A stretch of 64,000 nt of DNA, taken from positions 1 to 64,000 of IMG/VR virus record IMGVR_UViG_3300009609_000001; one strand, given 5' to 3'. Under the pieces are notes generated by a model. It was not told where the DNA came from, did no database searches, and saw only the letters and a list, made by a program, of their open reading frames with translations. Origin of the DNA: a virus. Below, piece by piece: positions 9,758 to 28,875 of the stretch. How positions within the stretch are numbered: position 1 is the first letter of the stretch; the number at the start of each line of letters is the position of its first letter. The position numbers were made by a program, and so were the translations under genes.

Positions 9758-11857
9758 TCACGTTACGCCGACAACCGGATCGGCCGCCGCGTCAACCGTC
9801 AGCGTTTTCGTCGCGTGCGTAGTCGATCCGTTGGTGCGCTTAATCGTCCAGGTCGTCCCGCTGCGGCTGCTTTCCAGGCTCGCGAGAATGACCGTGCAAA
9901 GCGTGTGCTCGCCCGCCGTTGCCTCGACGTTTGACACGCTGCGAATCAACAGCGCGTCCGCGTTCTCGATGGCCGTTGGAACCGAGGCTGTCACGTCGGC
10001 TGTGGAGATGTCGTTGAATCCGGTGATGCCGGTCCCCTTGGCCAGAACGATGTTCGTCCCGGCGGTCAGCGTGCGTGTAGCGGCGGCCCACACGTCGGCC
10101 GCGCTGTGCGTGCTGAAGCCCGTTGCCGTGTTCCACGCTGCGTCGCCACGGTCCCGCAAGGCTTCCAGGGAATCGCTCGTTTCCAGGTATGCTCCGCTGC
10201 CTGCGCCAGTTGCCCGCAATTCCGTCCTGGCGGTCGAGTCGCCGGTTTGCTTTCCTGCAATCAGTCCAAGCCACTGGGCCAGCGACGTGATTCCTGAGAA
10301 GAGCGTTGACGTGATGCGTGTGACCAGATTTCCAGTGTCCGTCTTGACGGCGGCAATATCCACGCTGATCGATGCCCCAGCAGGTGCTCCAAGCCGAGCG
10401 AACGAGTCCCCTGTCTGCGGAGTGTTGCCCGTGTAGGTCGTGAGTGTGGAGACTGTGCCGACCAGATTGCCGGTGATGTTGCCCGTGATATTCGCCGTCA
10501 GCGTTTGGCCAGCAGTCCCATCCAGCATACTCTCCAGGCTGGCCGCCACGAAAAAGTCATTACTGATGCCCTCGACGTTGGCCCCGATGAATGCCGATCC
10601 TCCAAAGGTATACGACGCCACTTGGGTTCCGCGAATCATCGCCAGGTCAACCCGACCATTCGGCAGGATTTCGTAGGTGACGCCCGCAGCAACCGCCGCT
10701 GGCAGGTCAGGCGTCCAGCTAATTTGATCCGTGCCGGAGTTGAATCCATTGATGAGCCGCGTCAACCCGACGTTCGAGCCGCTGGTGAACTTGATATGCA
10801 TCCCCACCCAATAATCGTCGGGTGATTCGGTGCGCTCGGTGTCTACGAGGTCGCTGATGGTTCCACTGTCAGCCGTGCCGCTGGCGCATGCGTCGGTGGA
10901 TTGCATCTTGCCGTTGAGCAGCGCGGCCGGCAAACGCGATTGAATGTCGTCCGTCTGGCTTTCGATATCAACGAGATTTGCCGCAAGAGTTGCGCCGCTG
11001 CCCAGGTTCGACGGCCCGCCAATCCTGTTCACGACATCGGTTTGAACGAAGTCGTTCAAATCCTGTACGGCGGACCCCAGCGCCAGAGACAGGCCGCTGT
11101 CGCCCTTGACGCGGATATCGTTGCTCACGTGGTCAGCGGTCACAACCCCGGTAAGGGTGGTTGCGCCGCTGACCGTGAGTGTTGCGAATGTCGTGGCCGC
11201 GTTGCTGCCGGCGATGAACACTCCACCTGCGGAGCCGGCAGTCGCGGAAGGCAGGAAGTCGGTCTTAGTCTTAACGGCGTCAACGAGTAGGTCTAACCGT
11301 CCGCCGTCAATCCAGTCCGTGAGCGCCCCCATGCGGGCTGCCGTAACCTCGTTCGTGTTGGCCAGCTTCGCGTCCAAGTCCAGCCCGCCCGCGTCGCTGA
11401 TCGGCAAGCCGCCTGCGGCATCGGCTGCGGCGTTGGGGAGTGCGGTCCCTGCCAGCCCCCGCGTCGTACTCCATGCGTTATCGACAAGCGCGTCATTGAG
11501 CGCAGCCGCTCGGAAGCAGATCGTCGGCCCGCGCCACGGCAGGACGCCGGTCGCCTTTCCGGTGAACCAGCCATAGCCGGCGGTGTTGTTGTTGATCGAC
11601 GCCCCGCCACTCGCGGGAATCTCGATCGTGTACATGCCGCCGTCCTGATGCGCCCAGTCGTAGACTCCTGCGGCAGTCGGCGTGACGACTGTGGCCGAGT
11701 ACGCCCCGGCAGACGTAACGAAATGCCAAATCAGCTCCATGCCGGCGGCATCGAAGGCGACGGCTTCTTCGATGGATACGAAGTCCGTCGAGTCCGTCAA
11801 TGGGACAATGTTCACCGGAACCTCGGCTAGGGCGGCGTCAACATCCATTGCGATCAT
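9758..11857 (-). CDS. Tail-fibre/baseplate-like structural protein, 699 aa
   Basis: The ATG at 11857 overlaps the stop of the lectin-like gene (ATGA); upstream codons of the open frame lie inside that gene. The N-terminal ~150 residues (VPVNIVPLTDSTDFVSIEEA, WHFVTSAGAYSATVV) resemble the baseplate-attachment region of phage fibre proteins. The body is long, low-complexity and rich in A, T, G, D and V, with collagen-like ITGNITGNLVGTV, and ends with an Ig-like segment (TWTIKRTNGSTTHATKTLTV). It likely binds the host surface. The fibre assignment rests on composition and neighbours. Confidence 0.75.
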   Translation of the reverse strand: MIAMDVDAALAEVPVNIVPLTDSTDFVSIEEAVAFDAAGMELIWHFVTSAGAYSATVVTPTAAGVYDWAHQDGGMYTIEIPASGGASINNNTAGYGWFTGKATGVLPWRGPTICFRAAALNDALVDNAWSTTRGLAGTALPNAAADAAGGLPISDAGGLDLDAKLANTNEVTAARMGALTDWIDGGRLDLLVDAVKTKTDFLPSATAGSAGGVFIAGSNAATTFATLTVSGATTLTGVVTADHVSNDIRVKGDSGLSLALGSAVQDLNDFVQTDVVNRIGGPSNLGSGATLAANLVDIESQTDDIQSRLPAALLNGKMQSTDACASGTADSGTISDLVDTERTESPDDYWVGMHIKFTSGSNVGLTRLINGFNSGTDQISWTPDLPAAVAAGVTYEILPNGRVDLAMIRGTQVASYTFGGSAFIGANVEGISNDFFVAASLESMLDGTAGQTLTANITGNITGNLVGTVSTLTTYTGNTPQTGDSFARLGAPAGASISVDIAAVKTDTGNLVTRITSTLFSGITSLAQWLGLIAGKQTGDSTARTELRATGAGSGAYLETSDSLEALRDRGDAAWNTATGFSTHSAADVWAAATRTLTAGTNIVLAKGTGITGFNDISTADVTASVPTAIENADALLIRSVSNVEATAGEHTLCTVILASLESSRSGTTWTIKRTNGSTTHATKTLTVDAAADPVVGVT

Positions 11858-19170: not shown

Positions 19171-19497
19171 TCAAAGAGGCTCCCGCCGGTCGGTGGTGTA
19201 ACTCTGGCAAGTGCCGGCGGGAGCCGTAGGGACCGGCACGGGAACGGGAACCGGAACGCCGAAGTTGCGAACCGGCACTCCGTAGCTGTAGACCGGAACG
19301 CCGAAGTTGAACGACCGAATCTGGGCATTGCGAATCTGCTGGGCGCGAAGGAATGCCAGTTCATTCGCGCGGGCCTGCTGGCGGATAGCCGCTCCTGGAA
19401 ACAGGAATCCACGGCGAACAACTGGCCCGCCAGCCTGGCACATGTCCGCCGCGAGGCAGAGCGCGAGTACGGCGATGAGGGAAATGAGACGCTTCAT
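19171..19497 (-). CDS. Exported protein with GVPV repeats, 108 aa
   Basis: The start at MKRLISLIAVLALCLAADMC gives a signal peptide with cleavage likely after CQA. The mature part has a helix (AIRQQARANELAFLRAQQIR) then FGVPV/YGVPV/FGVPV repeats and a VPVPVPVPTAPA tail. Such short secreted Pro/Val-repeat proteins are common in planctomycetes. Function unknown. Confidence 0.72.
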   Translation of the reverse strand: MKRLISLIAVLALCLAADMCQAGGPVVRRGFLFPGAAIRQQARANELAFLRAQQIRNAQIRSFNFGVPVYSYGVPVRNFGVPVPVPVPVPTAPAGTCQSYTTDRREPL

Positions 19498-20520: not shown

Positions 20521-21477
20521 TTACTTGCCTCCCATCGGCTGTGCTGGTTGCGGCGGCGCGGGCGCCGGGTCCGGCGGTGGCGACGAGCCTTGCACGGACA
20601 CGCCTGATTCGACAATCGCCTCGACCTCATCCAAGATGCCGACTTTCTGCGCTTGTGTTGGTTGCTTTTCTTTAGCCGGCGGCATGGTGATAACCTTGAC
20701 AACTTTCCCGGTTTCGTCCCTCACTTTTTTTCCGCTGGACAATACCTGGCTGATGGTCAAATACTTCGACTGCATGCGTTCATCGCCAATCACAAAGCCG
20801 CCCTTTGCTTCCGTCTGGTCGTGGCAGCGAGTGCAGAACTGCGCGAGCAACGGGTACGGCTGTGGCGGCGGTGCCGTCTCTGCTTGGTACTTTTGGCCGT
20901 TGTAAGGCTGGCCTCCCATGTAACCGTTCGCCTGCCCGTTGATCGCCTGCAATTGCTGCTGGTTCAGCGGGGTGACTTGCACGCCGTTTGCGCTATGCGT
21001 CACGACCACGGCGGACGACTGGCCTTGCGCTTGATAGCCAGGTGTCAGGCCAGCGGCGTTCAAAACCATCGCGGCGCTTTGGCCGACGGCATACTGTTGG
21101 GCGATGGGTGCATCGAGTTCTGCGAACCGCACGGCCTGCGCATCGACGCGCGCCATTGAGGCTGCCCCGACGCTATTGAATGCCAAGAGCAGTTGCTGCT
21201 GGCCGTGCATGAATGCGTTCCTGTCAAAGTACGGGTACGCCCCTTGCTGATAACCGCCGTTGCTCACGCCGAGACTCGCACCCTGCGCGACGAGTGGCGT
21301 TGGTGTGCCGGCATTCTGGATGACATAGACATTGCTTTGCACTTGCTGAAGCGGTGGCGGCGGGACGTAAGCCTTCGGCACGTAGCGGCACGATCGGTAA
21401 TTTCCGCACCGGAAGCAGGCTTGGGCATCAGAAGCAAATCCCAGCAACACGGCGATGGCAAGTAGCGTTCTCATCAA
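20521..21477 (-). CDS. Exported c-type cytochrome-like protein, 318 aa
   Basis: Signal peptide MMRTLLAIAVLLGFASDAQA, then C21-x-x-C24 and C30. A long Gln/Ala-rich linker leads to a heme-binding motif C215-TR-C218-H219 in a small cytochrome c domain with FVIGDERMQ and a plausible axial Met265 in ITMPPAKEKQ. The C terminus is Pro-rich. It would be exported and haem-loaded by host machinery. The ATG overlaps the stop of 21474-23258, another exported CxxCH protein, so they are likely partners. The domain resembles planctomycete secreted cytochrome modules. Confidence 0.83.
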   Translation of the reverse strand: MMRTLLAIAVLLGFASDAQACFRCGNYRSCRYVPKAYVPPPPLQQVQSNVYVIQNAGTPTPLVAQGASLGVSNGGYQQGAYPYFDRNAFMHGQQQLLLAFNSVGAASMARVDAQAVRFAELDAPIAQQYAVGQSAAMVLNAAGLTPGYQAQGQSSAVVVTHSANGVQVTPLNQQQLQAINGQANGYMGGQPYNGQKYQAETAPPPQPYPLLAQFCTRCHDQTEAKGGFVIGDERMQSKYLTISQVLSSGKKVRDETGKVVKVITMPPAKEKQPTQAQKVGILDEVEAIVESGVSVQGSSPPPDPAPAPPQPAQPMGGK

Positions 21478-23258
21478 TTGTTCTCCCCGGCGAAAAGGGT
21501 TCGGTTTGGCAAGGCTCGCCGCATCAAGTCAACGTGCAGCGGGTCGTAATCGTCCGGCTTAATCAGCGCCCCATTTCGCATCAGGCCGATCAGTAAATCT
21601 TCCCCGCTTCCCTTGGGAAGCGCCGGCACGAGCTTCCGCAGCACGGCGGTCCCCTGTCCTTCGGGAACGCGCACGCCGAGGCGCAGGCACACGCCGTCAG
21701 CACTGATCCCGCCGTGAGTCGCAAACACTGGCTTGCCTTCCTTGTCGGACCCAGCGCGGACAGAGGAAGTCGGGTAACGCTGCGAGTGATAGATTTCTTT
21801 GACCTTTTGGCCGAGCCGCTGAACTGGACTCGGCCCATCGGCAATCACGGGGTAGTCGGTGAGATAGGAAACGGCCTTAACGAAGTCCCGCCGGGCACGG
21901 CCAAGGATTCCGTCGCCCAGGTAAATCGGCTCGCCATAGCGGCCGACGACAACGGCCTCGGCTTGCTGCTTGTTGAGCGTGACTTTCTTGCCGCGGCGCG
22001 TGAAGCTGAACTCGTCACCGAAGTAATCCACGTCGCTTCCTAACAACAGTTCCATGTCGTTGCGCTTCGTTTTGTAGCCGTCGTCCGGCGAGTGACAAAC
22101 TACGCACGACATGCCCATTTCCAGTTCTTTTGTGTGGCCGTCTGGCTTCGTCGAGTCCACCACGATATCGGGTGGAGCGGAGCGGAGGATATTTCCCTTG
22201 GCGTCTGTCAGCACGTACTCAAGCAATCCGTTCGTCAGCGGAATGAAAATCTCGTTGGCATCGCTGAACGCCACGAACTCCACAAGGTTGCGGATGAATT
22301 GCTCGTCTGGACGCGTGCGGCTGTCCTTGAAATCGAACGTGATAACCGTAGGTCGCCCGCCTCCAGTCAGCCCGGACAGACACAATACTATGCGGGTTTT
22401 CCCCGTCACATCCGACTGCAAAAGCAGACAGCCCTTGTCGCCCAATCGCTCGATTGACTCCTCCAGGAAGAATCCCCGCTTGTCGAACAGCGATTGGATA
22501 GGTGTTCCCTTCTCCACCTTGAAATCGATCTGGCGGAATTCGGGATACTTCCCGCGAACGCTCGTCAGCAGTTGCTCAAGCAGGAAGTCGGCAGGGTAGA
22601 TGCCGCCCGTCGAGCGAGTGAGTTGCGTAATGAGCACGTCCAACCGCTGGGACTTTTCCGGCTCTGTGACGTGGCGAGCCAATGCGGCTTCCAGATGCGG
22701 AGCCAGCACGAAGATTCGTTTTTTCACCTGCACGGTTTTCTTTTGCTTGACCGGCTGTCGCGTGCGCGGATCGGTGACGGTGACCTCTTGCACCGTGTCA
22801 ACGAGATTGTCTTTAGGGACGTGCAGCCTCGATTCACGCTCTGCCAGGCTGTCCCAGGTCTCGATCAGCCGGGCGCATTGCACCGGGTCGGGCGCGAGCC
22901 GCTGAAGGTTGTAAGCCAGCAAAAAACCACCGGCATGAATATCCGCTTTAACGAGCACTGTAGTCTGCGAGCAACTAGCGTTGACCGCGAAGTTCATCAC
23001 ACCAATCCATTCGGCATCGGCGAACGGTGGAAGCCAAACGAATCTCAGATACGGTAGGACCGATGGATCATTCTCGGCGTATTGAATGAGGGCTGAAAAT
23101 GCCCACCCGACGGCATCCACCTCGGTCGGGAGCAACTCAATCGCCGGAGTAGTAGGCTTTGCCGGTGCCGCAGGCTTTGCGGGTGGCGCAGAAACCTGAC
23201 CGTGCGTGGAACACGAAAGCAAAACAATTGCGGCAATTATGATTAGCTTCGTTTTCAT
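21474..23258 (-). CDS. Lipoprotein with single CxxCH motif, cytochrome-like, 594 aa
   Basis: N-terminal MKTKLIIIAAIVLLSCSTHG is a lipoprotein signal with lipobox LLSC (C16). Conserved-looking segments include FADAEWIGVMNFAVNASCSQ and AYNLQRLAPDPVQCARLIE. The haem motif C385-VV-C388-H389-SPDDG is in the C-terminal third, and no other CxxCH is present. It probably sits on an outer or periplasmic membrane face with the 318-aa cytochrome. No catalytic family recognised. Co-expressed through 4-base overlaps with both neighbours. Confidence 0.78.
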   Translation of the reverse strand: MKTKLIIIAAIVLLSCSTHGQVSAPPAKPAAPAKPTTPAIELLPTEVDAVGWAFSALIQYAENDPSVLPYLRFVWLPPFADAEWIGVMNFAVNASCSQTTVLVKADIHAGGFLLAYNLQRLAPDPVQCARLIETWDSLAERESRLHVPKDNLVDTVQEVTVTDPRTRQPVKQKKTVQVKKRIFVLAPHLEAALARHVTEPEKSQRLDVLITQLTRSTGGIYPADFLLEQLLTSVRGKYPEFRQIDFKVEKGTPIQSLFDKRGFFLEESIERLGDKGCLLLQSDVTGKTRIVLCLSGLTGGGRPTVITFDFKDSRTRPDEQFIRNLVEFVAFSDANEIFIPLTNGLLEYVLTDAKGNILRSAPPDIVVDSTKPDGHTKELEMGMSCVVCHSPDDGYKTKRNDMELLLGSDVDYFGDEFSFTRRGKKVTLNKQQAEAVVVGRYGEPIYLGDGILGRARRDFVKAVSYLTDYPVIADGPSPVQRLGQKVKEIYHSQRYPTSSVRAGSDKEGKPVFATHGGISADGVCLRLGVRVPEGQGTAVLRKLVPALPKGSGEDLLIGLMRNGALIKPDDYDPLHVDLMRRALPNRTLFAGENN

Positions 23259-23794
23259 GCTCGCGGACGCTTCGACTTAGCCCTAAGTTCTGCGACATAT
23301 ATCCGGCTGATGCCAAACTGATTCGCAATGACAGCCTGGCGAATTCCAAGGTCACATTGCCTCCTGATCTCAACGACATCAGCGTTCGACAGTTTTGTGT
23401 TGTAGTGGTCCTCGCCGCTGTGATTGAGTCCGGTGTCGAATGCGTGGCGAATGTTGATCTTTCCCGTAACCCACTCTAGGTTGCTTGGCAAATTATTCGC
23501 CTTGTTGCCGTCCTTGTGATTGATTTCGTGGCCCGATGGGCGTGGCCCAATAAAGGCTTCCGCAACTAAGTGATGCACCTTGCGCGTTGTGTGATTTGGA
23601 GAAATAATGACGTAAGCATATCCGTTTTTGTCAGTTTTTAACTTCAAGACTCGGCCAGGCATTGGGCGAGTGTATGGCTGTCCATGCCAAAGAGACTCAA
23701 TATCGCGATCCAAACTACGAACCCGCCCGAGATCGCTGACTTCGTAAAACTGGTGTCCTACAACTTGACGCCAAACTTCTGCTACGATCTCCAT
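23255..23794 (-). CDS. NUMOD4-HNH homing-type endonuclease, 179 aa
   Basis: ATG at 23794 follows AGGAAAGGA. N-terminal NUMOD4-like WRQVVGHQFYEVSDLGRVRS, then HNH core VHHLVAEAFIGPRPSGHEIN, HKDGNKANNLPSNLEWVT and a C-terminal HTH (LSNADVVEIRRQCDLGIRQ) used for site choice. The frame stays open upstream into a signal-peptide-like segment (23795-23941), so it may be fused to or inserted in another gene. Ends in a 4-base overlap with the lipoprotein gene. Confidence 0.9.
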   Translation of the reverse strand: MEIVAEVWRQVVGHQFYEVSDLGRVRSLDRDIESLWHGQPYTRPMPGRVLKLKTDKNGYAYVIISPNHTTRKVHHLVAEAFIGPRPSGHEINHKDGNKANNLPSNLEWVTGKINIRHAFDTGLNHSGEDHYNTKLSNADVVEIRRQCDLGIRQAVIANQFGISRIYVAELRAKSKRPRA

Positions 23795-23941
23795 TGTCGA
23801 TCCTTTCCTACGAAGGGTTGACCACGCCTCCGGCTGCTTCAACAGCGCGGGGGCACTTTTGTTGTGAATGATATGCACTGCCTGCGCAGCCGCCGGCACG
23901 GCGATAATCAGGGAAGTCAGGATGATGGTTTCGACTTTCAC
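23795..23941 (-). pseudogene. Signal-peptide-bearing gene fragment in frame with the HNH gene
   Basis: GTG at 23941 overlaps a TGA (GTGA) and opens VKVETIILTSLIIAVPAAAQ, a clear export signal, followed by about 30 polar residues. There is no stop before the HNH ATG. The likely reading is an exported protein interrupted by HNH insertion, with its C-terminal part missing. A genuine secreted HNH fusion seems less likely. Confidence 0.45.
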
Positions 23942-24172
23942 TTCAGCACTTCCATCGCGTCGTCCAAATGCCACAACTGTTCCGGCTTGCCATACCAGCA
24001 CCGTTTTCAGATGGAGCACTTTCCCATCGGCCTCTTTCACGACGTGCGCCACGCAGGCCAGGTGCTCATCGTGTTCCGCCGGCCCGACAAGCAGGCCGCA
24101 GACCGGGTGCCCGCCGGCTATGCCGACTACACGGTCACCGATCGTTGCTGCGCGGCCGTTCTTGTATTTCAT
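23938..24172 (-). CDS. Small conserved phage-type protein with probable +1 frameshift
   Basis: Starts MKYKNGRAATIGDRVVG after ATGA overlap with 24169-24549. As written, the frame runs on through a non-native-looking VWQAGTVVAFGRRDG. One base off, a better C terminus appears: CWYGKPEQLWHLDDAMEVLK then TGA at 23938, overlapping the next GTG. The switch maps near an AAAA run (plus strand TTTT 24004-24007). One base fewer would join the frames into a ~77-aa protein like other small phage proteins of this start type. Could be a sequencing error or true frameshift. Confidence 0.55.
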
Positions 24173-25146: not shown

Positions 25147-25506
25147 TCAGTGAATGTACTCGCGGGCAAAACGACACAGCGCCAGAAAGATTTCATCCTT
25201 GATGCGCTCGGCCGCGTGTAGCTCCTCAAACGGAACCATGTCTGGGTGCGTCTTGGCCTCACGATCGCGAACTGGTCCGTACTTCCAGCCCATTGCCTCA
25301 TAGGCACGCCACCACGAATCATGCTCTGCCTTGGGAGTCGTCTCATACCCATTCGCGCAAATCCGCTCAATGGTGGCAATGAACTGCGTGCGGAAAGCTT
25401 CTTCGCGTTGTTCCCACGGCTCTGGGATAATTGGCCGCTGCGAGGCAACACACTCAATGCGTGCGGCCTCGTAGATGTAGATGGCTCGACGTTCGGTGAG
25501 TGTCAT
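25147..25506 (-). CDS. RyR-domain protein, 119 aa
   Basis: ATG at 25506 overlaps the SGNH gene stop. The C-terminal two-thirds match the RyR (ryanodine-receptor repeat) domain: DSWWRAYEAMGWKYGPVRDR, then KTHPDMVPFEELHAAERIKD and IFLALCRFAREY. Stand-alone RyR domains occur in phages and bacteria and may bind nucleotides or ligands. The N-terminal helix (TLTERRAIYIYEAARIECV) is unassigned. Confidence 0.85.
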   Translation of the reverse strand: MTLTERRAIYIYEAARIECVASQRPIIPEPWEQREEAFRTQFIATIERICANGYETTPKAEHDSWWRAYEAMGWKYGPVRDREAKTHPDMVPFEELHAAERIKDEIFLALCRFAREYIH

Positions 25507-26267
25507 TGCCACAACCCCAGTAGTTCCGTATCGCTGAACAGCCCCGGCTCGATCTCATTCGCCAGCAACCCGTGCGCAATCGCCCCCGGATGCACGCCGT
25601 CAACGGTGACATACTCGCGGCTGCCAAACTTCGGAAAGCCGACCAGTTGCAAGTCGCCGACCTTTGGCGGACTCAACAGCACGCGCTCGTACCAGTCGCC
25701 GAAGTCGATGATGCGAAATCGCGTGCTGGTGCTCAAAAGCTGCCGCAGTTCCTTGTTGAAAAACGCGATGTGGCTATCCGCGCACACGGCTTCATTGAGG
25801 GTCAGCCTGTAGCTCGGCGGCTGCAAGACGTGGAAGCTCGGCAGCGTGGTCAGGAACACCGTGGCCGATTCCGGGATGGCGGCGCAGGCTGTCTTGAGGT
25901 TGCTCACCATGCGGTCCGATAGCTTGTCGGCCTCGACGTGCGAGCCGCGCGCGTGCTGGGTCAGCAGCCCGTCGCGCTTCTTCGACATGCCAACGTCGTT
26001 GACGCCCATGTCCACGAACGCGCAGGTGATTTTTTTCCTGCGCACGGCTGGCATCGCCGTGATACGCTTGGCAATCACCGTTGACGGCGTGCCCGGCATG
26101 GCGAGGTTCTCATACGTGTCGCCGGCCAACTTGCTGCCGAGCTTGCGGAACAGCAGACCGGGCGCGCACTCGCCGAAGTCTTTGGCCTTGCCGATTGGCG
26201 GGAATCGCGCCATGCCCCACAGGCTGTTTCCGACTACCAGAGTGTTGTCGAAGCTCACGCCGTGCAT
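25503..26267 (-). CDS. SGNH/GDSL-type hydrolase, 254 aa
   Basis: Blocks of the SGNH fold in order: VVGNSLW with candidate nucleophile Ser15 (block I), MGVND around N90 (block III), and DGVHPGAIAHGLLAN with D223 and H226 (block V). It could be an esterase acting on an acylated glycan. No signal peptide. Lies among exported-protein genes, so it may be a virion or lysis-related de-acylase. Confidence 0.82.
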   Translation of the reverse strand: MHGVSFDNTLVVGNSLWGMARFPPIGKAKDFGECAPGLLFRKLGSKLAGDTYENLAMPGTPSTVIAKRITAMPAVRRKKITCAFVDMGVNDVGMSKKRDGLLTQHARGSHVEADKLSDRMVSNLKTACAAIPESATVFLTTLPSFHVLQPPSYRLTLNEAVCADSHIAFFNKELRQLLSTSTRFRIIDFGDWYERVLLSPPKVGDLQLVGFPKFGSREYVTVDGVHPGAIAHGLLANEIEPGLFSDTELLGLWQ

Positions 26268-26425: not shown

Positions 26426-27652
26426 TCACCTTGTGGCGAGCCTGCCTTCCCGCTTCATCTGGCTTGCTTGATTTTGCGCAACGAGCGCAGAATCAGCGGC
26501 AAGGTCCATCGACGGGCGAATTGCTCCGGTTACCGCCAGAGCGCGAGCTAAGATCACCTGCGCCGCCGCGTGGTCCCTATGGCAGGTCAGGCCACACGCG
26601 CAAGAGTGGGTTCGCTCGGATAGTTTCTTTGGCTTGACCGCTCCACAGTTGGGACATTCTTGGCTGGTGTATCTGGCGTCAACCTCAACCAGTTGCGAGC
26701 CGGCGCATTCTGCCTTGCTTCGCAACTGACTGAGGAAGATCGACCAACCAGCATCGTGAATGCTCTTTCCAAATCGCGAGCGAACCATGCCCGCTACGTT
26801 CAGGTTTTCCACGGCAATCAGATCGTATTTCCGCACCAGTGCCGTGCTGTGCTGGTGGGCAAAGTTCCTGCGCTGGTCGGCTACTTGCTCGTGCTTGCGA
26901 GCCAAGGCGTTGATCGCCTTGCGACGGCGATTGCTGCCTTTCTTCCGGCGCGACACGCGACGCTGCAAGGCTCGCACACTACTGGACGATCTGGCAAGGT
27001 ATCTCGGGTTTTCAATTTGCTCGCCGTCGCTCAGTGTGGCAAAGCTCGCTAGGCCCACGTCGATGCCGATTGCTGACTCAACGTGCCGCTTGTCCGGCAA
27101 CGGCGGCTGCTTGCCATCATCCAGGATTATTTGGGCGTACCATCCTGTGGCACGCTTGATGACGCAGATGCCTTTTTGCAATCCTTCCGGGAGCAGTCGT
27201 CCGCGGCAGCGGATCGTGCCAAAATTCGGCACGCGGATGCGGTCGCCTTTCAGGTAGGTGCTGCTGGAATCCAAACACTCCATTGAATTCCAACGGCTTG
27301 CGGATTTGAATCGCGGGAATCCAGGGTGGTTGCCTGCTTTGAAGCGTCGAAAAAACGCTTTCATCCCACGGTCAACGCGGCGCAGTGCATCGCGTTCAAA
27401 ATCCACTGGCACAGAACGCAATGAAGCAATTCGACCACGCAAATCAGTCAACCATGCGGTTTGCGTGTACAAGCTGACCGACTCGCCGCGTCGTCGATAA
27501 GCCTTGATCCGCATTTCCAGTGCTTGGTTGTGTAACCAACAGCAAGTGCGCAGCCACCGCTCCAGGGTCTTAATCTGGGCTTGGTTGGGGTACAGCTTGT
27601 ACTGGAAAATGCGGATCATAGGTCTTGGCGGGATGGCGGCAGCATGGGTCAT
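26426..27652 (-). CDS. tnpB: TnpB-family RNA-guided nuclease of IS200/IS605 type, 408 aa
   Basis: The core begins MIRIFQYKLYPNQAQI at Met12; an ATG at 27652 overlaps the previous stop. RuvC residues are intact: D198 in GIDVGLASFATL, E282 in AVENLNVAGM and D360 in TCHRDHAAAQVI. A zinc site is formed by CPNCG (333-336) and CACG (351-354). No TnpA is present and no clear element ends are seen. The TGA stop lies within the SD of the next gene, so an omegaRNA would have to overlap the 3' end and the 50-aa gene. Probably a mobile or domesticated copy. Confidence 0.92.
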   Translation of the reverse strand: MTHAAAIPPRPMIRIFQYKLYPNQAQIKTLERWLRTCCWLHNQALEMRIKAYRRRGESVSLYTQTAWLTDLRGRIASLRSVPVDFERDALRRVDRGMKAFFRRFKAGNHPGFPRFKSASRWNSMECLDSSSTYLKGDRIRVPNFGTIRCRGRLLPEGLQKGICVIKRATGWYAQIILDDGKQPPLPDKRHVESAIGIDVGLASFATLSDGEQIENPRYLARSSSSVRALQRRVSRRKKGSNRRRKAINALARKHEQVADQRRNFAHQHSTALVRKYDLIAVENLNVAGMVRSRFGKSIHDAGWSIFLSQLRSKAECAGSQLVEVDARYTSQECPNCGAVKPKKLSERTHSCACGLTCHRDHAAAQVILARALAVTGAIRPSMDLAADSALVAQNQASQMKREGRLATR

Positions 27653-28875
27653 GCACCCAACAGGATCGGCAACAGCTTCGTCAGCACGCTCACCAGCTTG
27701 GCCCAGTCGAACTTCATGGCGGACGCCTTCTGCTGGAAACTGATGGTTCCATCGCCAGTGCCCAGCAGCATGTTGAGCAGGGCCACGAACGCCGTCATGG
27801 CCGCTTGCATGTCGCCAGCCTTGAGTGCGTTCGTCAGTTCAATCACCTTGCCAATCACGCCGCCGATAGCGCTAGCCTTGGCCTCTTCCAACTGAATTCC
27901 GTCGGCCGGGATGCAGGTCTCCAACTCGTCGCCCAAAGCGACCAACTCTGCTTGATTTTCCACGGGGATTTCTCCTTGTGTTGACAACTTCAAAACCTTC
28001 CAACCGGGCGGCAGGCGGAGATGCACCGTCTTGGCCGCAAAATCCATATTCATGTCCAACCCCTTGCCGACCGGAGGCTCCGGCGGCGGGGGCGGCGCTG
28101 TCTGCTTGGGATAAATCTTGGCGACAAAATCGATGTCCTGCGGTGCAATGTCGGAACCGCCGACAATCGGTCTGCCGTCGCGCGTGATGATGCCCGGCAA
28201 GCTGTAGGTCATCACCGATGTTTCGTCGGCATCAGGCGTTCCCATCAACGACGATTCAGCGAGGGGCGTCAGAACTTGCTGTTGCACCATCGTTGCCGAC
28301 CACCCCTGAGTCTGCTTGAAATAAGCGATTGCTTTTGCCGGGTCGATGCGATTGACGATAGCGCTCCGCATGTGCTCGTGCGGGAATCCGAGCGTGTGCC
28401 CGGTTTCATGCCGCACGACACGGCGAAATTCAGCGTCCGATATGCTCATCGTGAACGCCTGCAAGCACATCGTCGCTTCGTTTTTTGGAATGTGGAAAAT
28501 GTCGGTGCCGAGATACGACCAGTAGCCTTCCTGCGAACGGGTGATGCGGACCTGCGAGTCTGTTGGGGAGTAAACGAAATTGACATTCGCGTACTCGCTC
28601 CAGGCATTCATGTGAGCCAGGATGCGTTTTCGCAAATCATCTGGCGTCGGCTCCATAAATCCGACCGTCAAGCGAACGCCCTTTGCACCCCAATACTTCG
28701 ACGTGAGAACTGCGAGGTGATCCGGCGGCAGCACCATGCCGGTGCTTGCGGCAGACTCACCGGCCGGGCGATTGATGGGATTTTGGACGATGGCTGTACG
28801 GGCCGCATCGATCGATACGTCGTAGGGCAAATACTTCGGCGTGCAAGGCAGGTCTAAGGCGGCCGTACTTGGCAT
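27649..28875 (-). CDS. Astacin-like (M12A metzincin) metallopeptidase, 408 aa
   Basis: Zinc-binding motif H156-E157-TG-H160-TLGFP-H166-E167 and Met-turn SVMTY (220-224) are diagnostic of astacin-like metzincins. The catalytic region spans ~residues 50-255, then a Pro-rich linker (APPPPPEPPVG) and a C-terminal domain of ~130 residues ending LLPILLGA. There is no N-terminal signal peptide, so it may be released by lysis or packaged in the virion. Confidence 0.9.
   Translation of the reverse strand: MPSTAALDLPCTPKYLPYDVSIDAARTAIVQNPINRPAGESAASTGMVLPPDHLAVLTSKYWGAKGVRLTVGFMEPTPDDLRKRILAHMNAWSEYANVNFVYSPTDSQVRITRSQEGYWSYLGTDIFHIPKNEATMCLQAFTMSISDAEFRRVVRHETGHTLGFPHEHMRSAIVNRIDPAKAIAYFKQTQGWSATMVQQQVLTPLAESSLMGTPDADETSVMTYSLPGIITRDGRPIVGGSDIAPQDIDFVAKIYPKQTAPPPPPEPPVGKGLDMNMDFAAKTVHLRLPPGWKVLKLSTQGEIPVENQAELVALGDELETCIPADGIQLEEAKASAIGGVIGKVIELTNALKAGDMQAAMTAFVALLNMLLGTGDGTISFQQKASAMKFDWAKLVSVLTKLLPILLGA

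Follow-up and report, generated by a model that had tools for sequence, protein, structure and literature searches.

Adjacent genes for two exported c-type cytochromes recur in bacterial viruses as the likely split form of a fused dihaem protein of bacteria

Analysis of a viral DNA stretch of 64,000 nucleotides (positions 1 to 64,000 of the IMG/VR record IMGVR_UViG_3300009609_000001, hereafter the window) revealed two overlapping genes, named here A and B, the products of which are almost certainly genuine c-type cytochromes. In at least nine further bacterial viruses, most of them unrelated, the two genes are again neighbours, and the best reading of the data is that phages have long maintained them as a split dihaem redox unit. 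Three elements are new in comparison with an earlier note on this DNA, made from the letters of the window: the recurrence of the pair in many phages, its correspondence to a fused cellular dihaem protein, of which it is the split form, and its link with peptidase genes. The gene pair has the following features:

21474..23258, minus strand: gene A, 594 aa, exported protein of a CxxCH domain family without earlier description
23193..23258, minus strand: predicted signal sequence of A (translation, by eye)
22092..22106, minus strand: CVVCH haem-attachment motif of A (residues 385-389)
21472..21476, minus strand: TGATG, overlap of the A stop and the B start (read from the sequence)
20521..21474, minus strand: gene B, 317 aa, exported protein with a C-terminal monohaem cytochrome c domain
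21415..21474, minus strand: predicted signal sequence of B (translation, by eye)
20821..20835, minus strand: CTRCH haem-attachment motif of B (residues 214-218)
20677..20685, minus strand: MPP of B (residues 264-266), probable axial Met ligand

The earlier note had described two minus-strand ORFs with one CxxCH motif each, and both were found at the positions and on the strand that it gave. Each protein contains a single CxxCH, where composition alone would predict 0.0016 occurrences for A and 0.0006 for B. Some details had to be revised. The ORF of B was retained with a length of 317 aa instead of 318 aa, its start being most likely the ATG at 21474 rather than the TTG at 21477. For A, the length of 594 aa, the CVVCH motif and the export hold, but its designation as a lipoprotein is doubtful, because the LLSC lipobox is weak and absent from the relatives. 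Export of both A and B is a safe prediction, and together with the constancy of CxxCH across relatives these signal sequences agree with the earlier description of the two products as exported c-type cytochromes. The overlap of the two genes is real, the ATG of B and the TGA stop of A having a single base in common; from the shared strand and this overlap we infer both the co-transcription that had been claimed and translational coupling of A and B.

The source record of the window is a virus record of 100,267 bases, on which the following hallmark genes lie outside the window (record coordinates derived from the offsets of loci L001 and L002):

about 72241-73731 of the record: terminase large subunit
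about 79498-81159 of the record: Mu-type portal (PF06074, E 1e-40)
about 88287-89333 of the record: major capsid protein

A tape-measure-like protein and an integrase are encoded on the record as well, also outside the window. Judging from this gene content, the 100-kb record represents a tailed phage; the question whether the contig is viral, raised in the earlier note, is answered by terminase, portal, capsid and integrase genes sharing one record with A and B. Sequence relatives indicate that planctomycete bacteria are most likely the host. The planctomycete connection had been drawn before from the style of the neighbouring proteins, and it agrees with the occurrence of the A domain in planctomycete genomes. 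A search with the portal gene gave one relative (47%) in the 392 sampled genomes, located on a 12-kb contig. Between the terminase and portal genes, a 584-aa protein (L001, 12912-14666) with a weak terminal match to the DnaJ CXXCXGXG motif is encoded.

Within the window, the neighbours of the pair were recognized as follows:

27649..28875, minus strand: astacin-like metallopeptidase (M12A; PF01400, 27.1 bits, cut-off 22.5)
26426..27652, minus strand: TnpB/OrfB (IS605-type) ORF (PF01385, PF07282)
23255..24172, minus strand: NUMOD4-HNH homing endonuclease ORF (PF13392, PF07463)
19171..19497, minus strand: small exported Val/Pro-rich ORF (translation)

The astacin-like peptidase gene is localized upstream of A on the same strand, 4.4 kb away, with mobile elements and small ORFs between. 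The stop of the NUMOD4-HNH ORF overlaps the start of A, and the TnpB/OrfB ORF, which overlaps the end of the peptidase gene, sits between this gene and A; this arrangement suggests that mobile elements were inserted into this operon. The same minus-strand run contains a GDSL-lipase-like ORF (25503-26267) with a sub-threshold Pfam match. The small Val/Pro-rich ORF may correspond to C, a low-complexity gene located after B in other phages, the likeness being one of composition and weak.

When used alone, A and B of the window each gave no Pfam or PDB match, and their PHROG matches were at chance level; the family signal emerged only with relatives included. In the alignment of 15 widely divergent A members (A5), the C, C and H of the CxxCH motif are identical in all 15, which bears out one half of the motif conservation in relatives that the earlier note had treated as decisive, the other half coming from B. 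Across the same alignment there is no second conserved His or Met; beyond CxxCH, conservation extends to Y238 (window numbering) and to several charged or polar residues. The A5 profile found no cytochrome in PDB up to E 1, and an AlphaFold2 model of A built from nine sequences reached a pLDDT of 40.6, too low for a usable fold. From its sequence pattern, A is a putative haem-protein domain family, not described before, with an invariant CxxCH. Its haem would probably be open or Tyr-ligated, and hence catalytic (peroxide/O2-type chemistry) or sensing.

The B proteins are composed of a Cys-containing N-terminus, a low-complexity middle part and a C-terminal domain with CTRCH and MPP in the window copy. 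Both CxxCH and MPP are invariant in the nine phage B proteins aligned (alignment A7), where the other invariants are a handful of residues (P, Y, L, P, I). This fits the earlier proposal of a likely Met ligand in B, and the haem ligands are most probably the His of CxxCH and the Met of MPP. A profile of the B domain (alignment A8) gave 32 PDB matches up to E 1, nearly all of them to c-type cytochromes, with bc1 cytochrome c as the best (E 0.0015). Cytochrome_CBB3 (PF13442) was matched by eight of the nine members and PSCyt1 (PF07635) by three phage members, in each case below the curated cut-off, and B of the window itself gave no match against Pfam; cellular fusions, e.g., L019 and L030, do exceed the PSCyt1 cut-off, whereas the best phage B stays below it. 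A PSCyt1 search of the whole record was empty, with the controls equally silent. The structure model of the B domain (pLDDT 65) gave Foldseek matches at chance level only.

Relatives of A were identified in 11 distinct phage loci, the window counted, and in 10 of them B follows directly; L007, L009, L013, L014, L043, L067-L070, L072 and L073, being duplicates or re-fetches, were not counted as separate loci. The closest ones come from two IMG/VR contigs (L003 and L004), in which A is 51-53% identical to that of the window and B follows it directly; the pair of L004 lies near a terminase and a lambda-type portal gene, and that of L003 near capsid genes. More distant pairs are present in the 595-kb phage LR756511 (L005), on contigs of 340,934 and 343,421 bases (L006 and L012, respectively), and in L010, L011 and L044. 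One further phage (L071, 187 kb) was recovered by the scan with the B profile alone, and A is located directly upstream of its B. A prophage-like region of a planctomycete genome (L035) contains A together with a subtilase gene and with genes resembling those for terminase, portal and capsid; it has no B. With L003 and L004, the window record clearly has only A and B in common, and with L035 only A. Single-protein scans with window B and with the prophage A each retrieved no relatives. For close pairs dN/dS is 0.08-0.22, and values of about 0.1-0.2 point to strong purifying selection. Taken together with the domain fusion described below, we consider it very probable that A and B form a functional pair.

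Two observations concern the surroundings of these loci. A block of six genes is kept in large phages (L005, 4809-10130; L006, 7923-13571; L010; L011; L071) in the order exported protein, papain-like peptidase, small protein, A, B and repeat-rich exported protein, the last one containing NRGFGxNVVV repeats. In L003, a capsid-like protein (10054-11121) matches DUF6260 and the encapsulin family Linocin_M18.

Cellular copies of the A domain were found with the profile of the phage A proteins (A4; E down to 1e-18). Among the 392 sampled planctomycete genomes, 12 contain the domain (the genome with the L035 prophage included), and a plasmid of Neorhizobium carries it too. Of 16 cellular copies, 15 have a cytochrome c motif ahead of A on the same polypeptide; the 16th is cut by a contig end and retains the MPP half. 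Among the phage copies placed on the tree, none of 10 has a preceding CxxCH in its chain. The search of phage and planctomycete sequences, named in the earlier note as a way of checking its claim, showed A-B recurring in the former and A fused to cytochrome c in the latter. Where two proteins are fused in one lineage and encoded by neighbouring genes in another, cooperation is usually indicated, and as A and B are fused in cells and adjacent in phages, they likely cooperate. On the unrooted A tree, phage and cellular copies are parted by one branch with a support of 100/100; either fission or fusion fits this split. One planctomycete protein (L039, 7778-10636) is composed of a serine/threonine kinase domain (recognized by eye), cytochrome c and A. 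It may be a transmembrane haem-sensor kinase, and such a fusion favours a sensing role for A.

The cellular copies are also linked to genes of caspase-family and CHAT-domain proteins. Such a gene lies within 10 kb of eight of the 12 cellular planctomycete copies, where 0.15 would be expected, and within 3 kb in six of these eight (P about 1e-13, a value which assumes random gene placement, ignores any clustering of secreted-protein genes and, as with all E-values and P values of this analysis, comes from small samples). The A-bearing planctomycete genomes carry 0-8 caspase and 1-4 CHAT genes each; domain searches of the neighbours of cellular A agree with the linkage, and a caspase-family gene is also present near the Neorhizobium copy. 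The genomes with caspase or CHAT beside the exported dihaem cytochrome are G292, G334, G122, G239, G025, G362, G001 and G351, and in some of them the linked gene is the only one of its kind. Near phage A neither caspase nor CHAT was found, other peptidase families occurring there instead. These represent five lineages: M12A in the window, M10 matrixin in L004, S8 subtilase in L003 and L035, and C1 papain-like peptidases in L006 and L010 (the match in L010 being slightly below the cut-off); for the L012/L044 lineage, Pfam supported no peptidase near A. The link in phages, a matter of proximity with differing families, is suggestive only, since the regions concerned are rich in secreted proteins.

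In our opinion, A-B is probably a split dihaem electron-transfer unit. Both proteins would be secreted and supplied with haem by the host: each of the eight planctomycete genomes tested had a cytochrome assembly gene, in accordance with the maturation genes that the earlier note had suggested looking for in the host, and assembly genes were absent from the four phage records tested, so that haem attachment by the host is most likely. Outside the inner membrane, the low-spin haem of B would pass electrons to or from the haem of A, which may carry out peroxide or O2 chemistry, or sense redox state or gases. More speculatively, the unit could act in the periplasm or the cell wall of the host with the peptidase encoded nearby, coupling redox state to envelope proteolysis during infection, and lysis, superinfection exclusion or blocking of the host cytochrome-caspase module might be the outcome. 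As the fused cellular form often lies beside caspase-like genes and phages carry the pair, the viruses seem to retain a ready-made redox unit with which to act on the host's outer layers. Cooperation of A-B with a protease is a tentative proposal, for which the chances seem a little under even, and the explanation as a whole, i.e., an exported split dihaem unit that works in the envelope of the host and may do so with a protease, is in our view about evenly balanced between right and wrong. A wider model is rather unlikely: an envelope cytochrome c-caspase/CHAT module of bacteria, above all planctomycetes, in which the dihaem cytochrome controls or feeds the protease, and of which phages keep the split cytochrome half and use their own proteases to run or block envelope proteolysis or cell death.

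Other explanations were weighed against the split dihaem unit. A and B could be auxiliary metabolic genes, B shuttling respiratory electrons and A supporting it, so that energy supply is kept up during infection; B is indeed of the periplasmic His/Met monohaem type, and its profile matches bc1 cytochrome c and cbb3 oxidase subunits. However, A resembles no respiratory component, its presence in so few planctomycete genomes argues against core respiration, the deeply separate phage lineage of A is not that of a recent host copy, and genes for an oxidase or another electron-chain component were not recognized beside A-B, which makes this role unlikely. The tight linkage of cellular A to caspase/CHAT genes, together with the cytochrome part being kept in phages without the caspase and beside other peptidases, would also suit a decoy or dominant-negative copy of a cytochrome-caspase/CHAT module which, in the envelope of the host, would otherwise kill infected cells. 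Yet PADLOC models match none of A, B and the cellular fusion, and the cellular module has no known defence role and is missing from most sampled planctomycetes; we regard such counter-defence as quite unlikely.

It is very unlikely that the two are surface or virion-associated structural proteins which the haem stabilises without any redox role, as it is the haem ligands of B, and not its linker, that are chiefly conserved, and A has many conserved polar residues; the long low-complexity middle and Cys-containing N-terminus of B, and the low-complexity exported protein C after B in large phages, are what speaks for it. Finally, planctomycete-style secreted proteins and mobile elements are abundant around A-B, as they might be in host DNA or a misassembled contig. 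This origin, or a chance occurrence of the motifs, is extremely improbable given the hallmark genes on the same record, the phage structural genes that adjoin the pair in both L003 and L004, its presence on phage contigs from different samples, the longest of 595 kb, and the invariance of the CxxCH motifs. Contamination was ruled out by the hallmark genes and the repeated independent loci.

In phages ranging from about 100 to 595 kb, A-B is conserved as a unit of two genes, and the strong genomic link of exported cytochromes with caspase-family proteins in planctomycetes makes a cytochrome-caspase connection directly testable. Within a partial coverage of the literature, no work joining caspase, CHAT domain, planctomycetes and cytochrome was found, and intact phage-encoded c-type cytochromes appear almost undocumented, priority being not certain. 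The cytochromes of Borg elements are multihaem proteins. Borgs resemble our phages in bearing cytochrome genes on large extrachromosomal elements (PMC9605863), and differ in being archaeal and not phages. The main text of the huge-phage paper (PMC7162821) does not mention cytochromes. Viral soxD was described together with other phage-encoded sulfur auxiliary metabolic genes (Kieft et al. 2021, PMC8190135), and is the sole published phage-borne c-type cytochrome found in our partial search; both viral SoxD proteins considered in that work lack cytochrome motifs in part or entirely, whereas those of A-B are invariant, and the A-B family is not SoxD.

With respect to protein families, the C-terminal domain of B resembles PSCyt1 and Cytochrome_CBB3 in having CxxCH followed by MPP, and differs in that B stands alone as a phage protein whose N-terminal part contains Cys and is of low complexity. 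Dihaem cytochrome c peroxidase and MauG combine a His/Met electron-transfer haem with a haem having an open or Tyr-ligated site. They may serve as a working analogy for A-B; there is no detectable sequence relation, and the A domain is larger. The nearest counterparts are the cellular dihaem proteins annotated merely as 'c-type cytochrome' (e.g., WP_227705619.1 of Neorhizobium petrolearium), in which an A domain with invariant CxxCH is directly preceded by a cytochrome c domain. They differ from A-B (identity about 20-26%) in being one chain in cells as opposed to two in phages, and in having caspase/CHAT neighbours, in contrast to the S8, C1, M10 and M12A peptidases encoded beside the phage pair.
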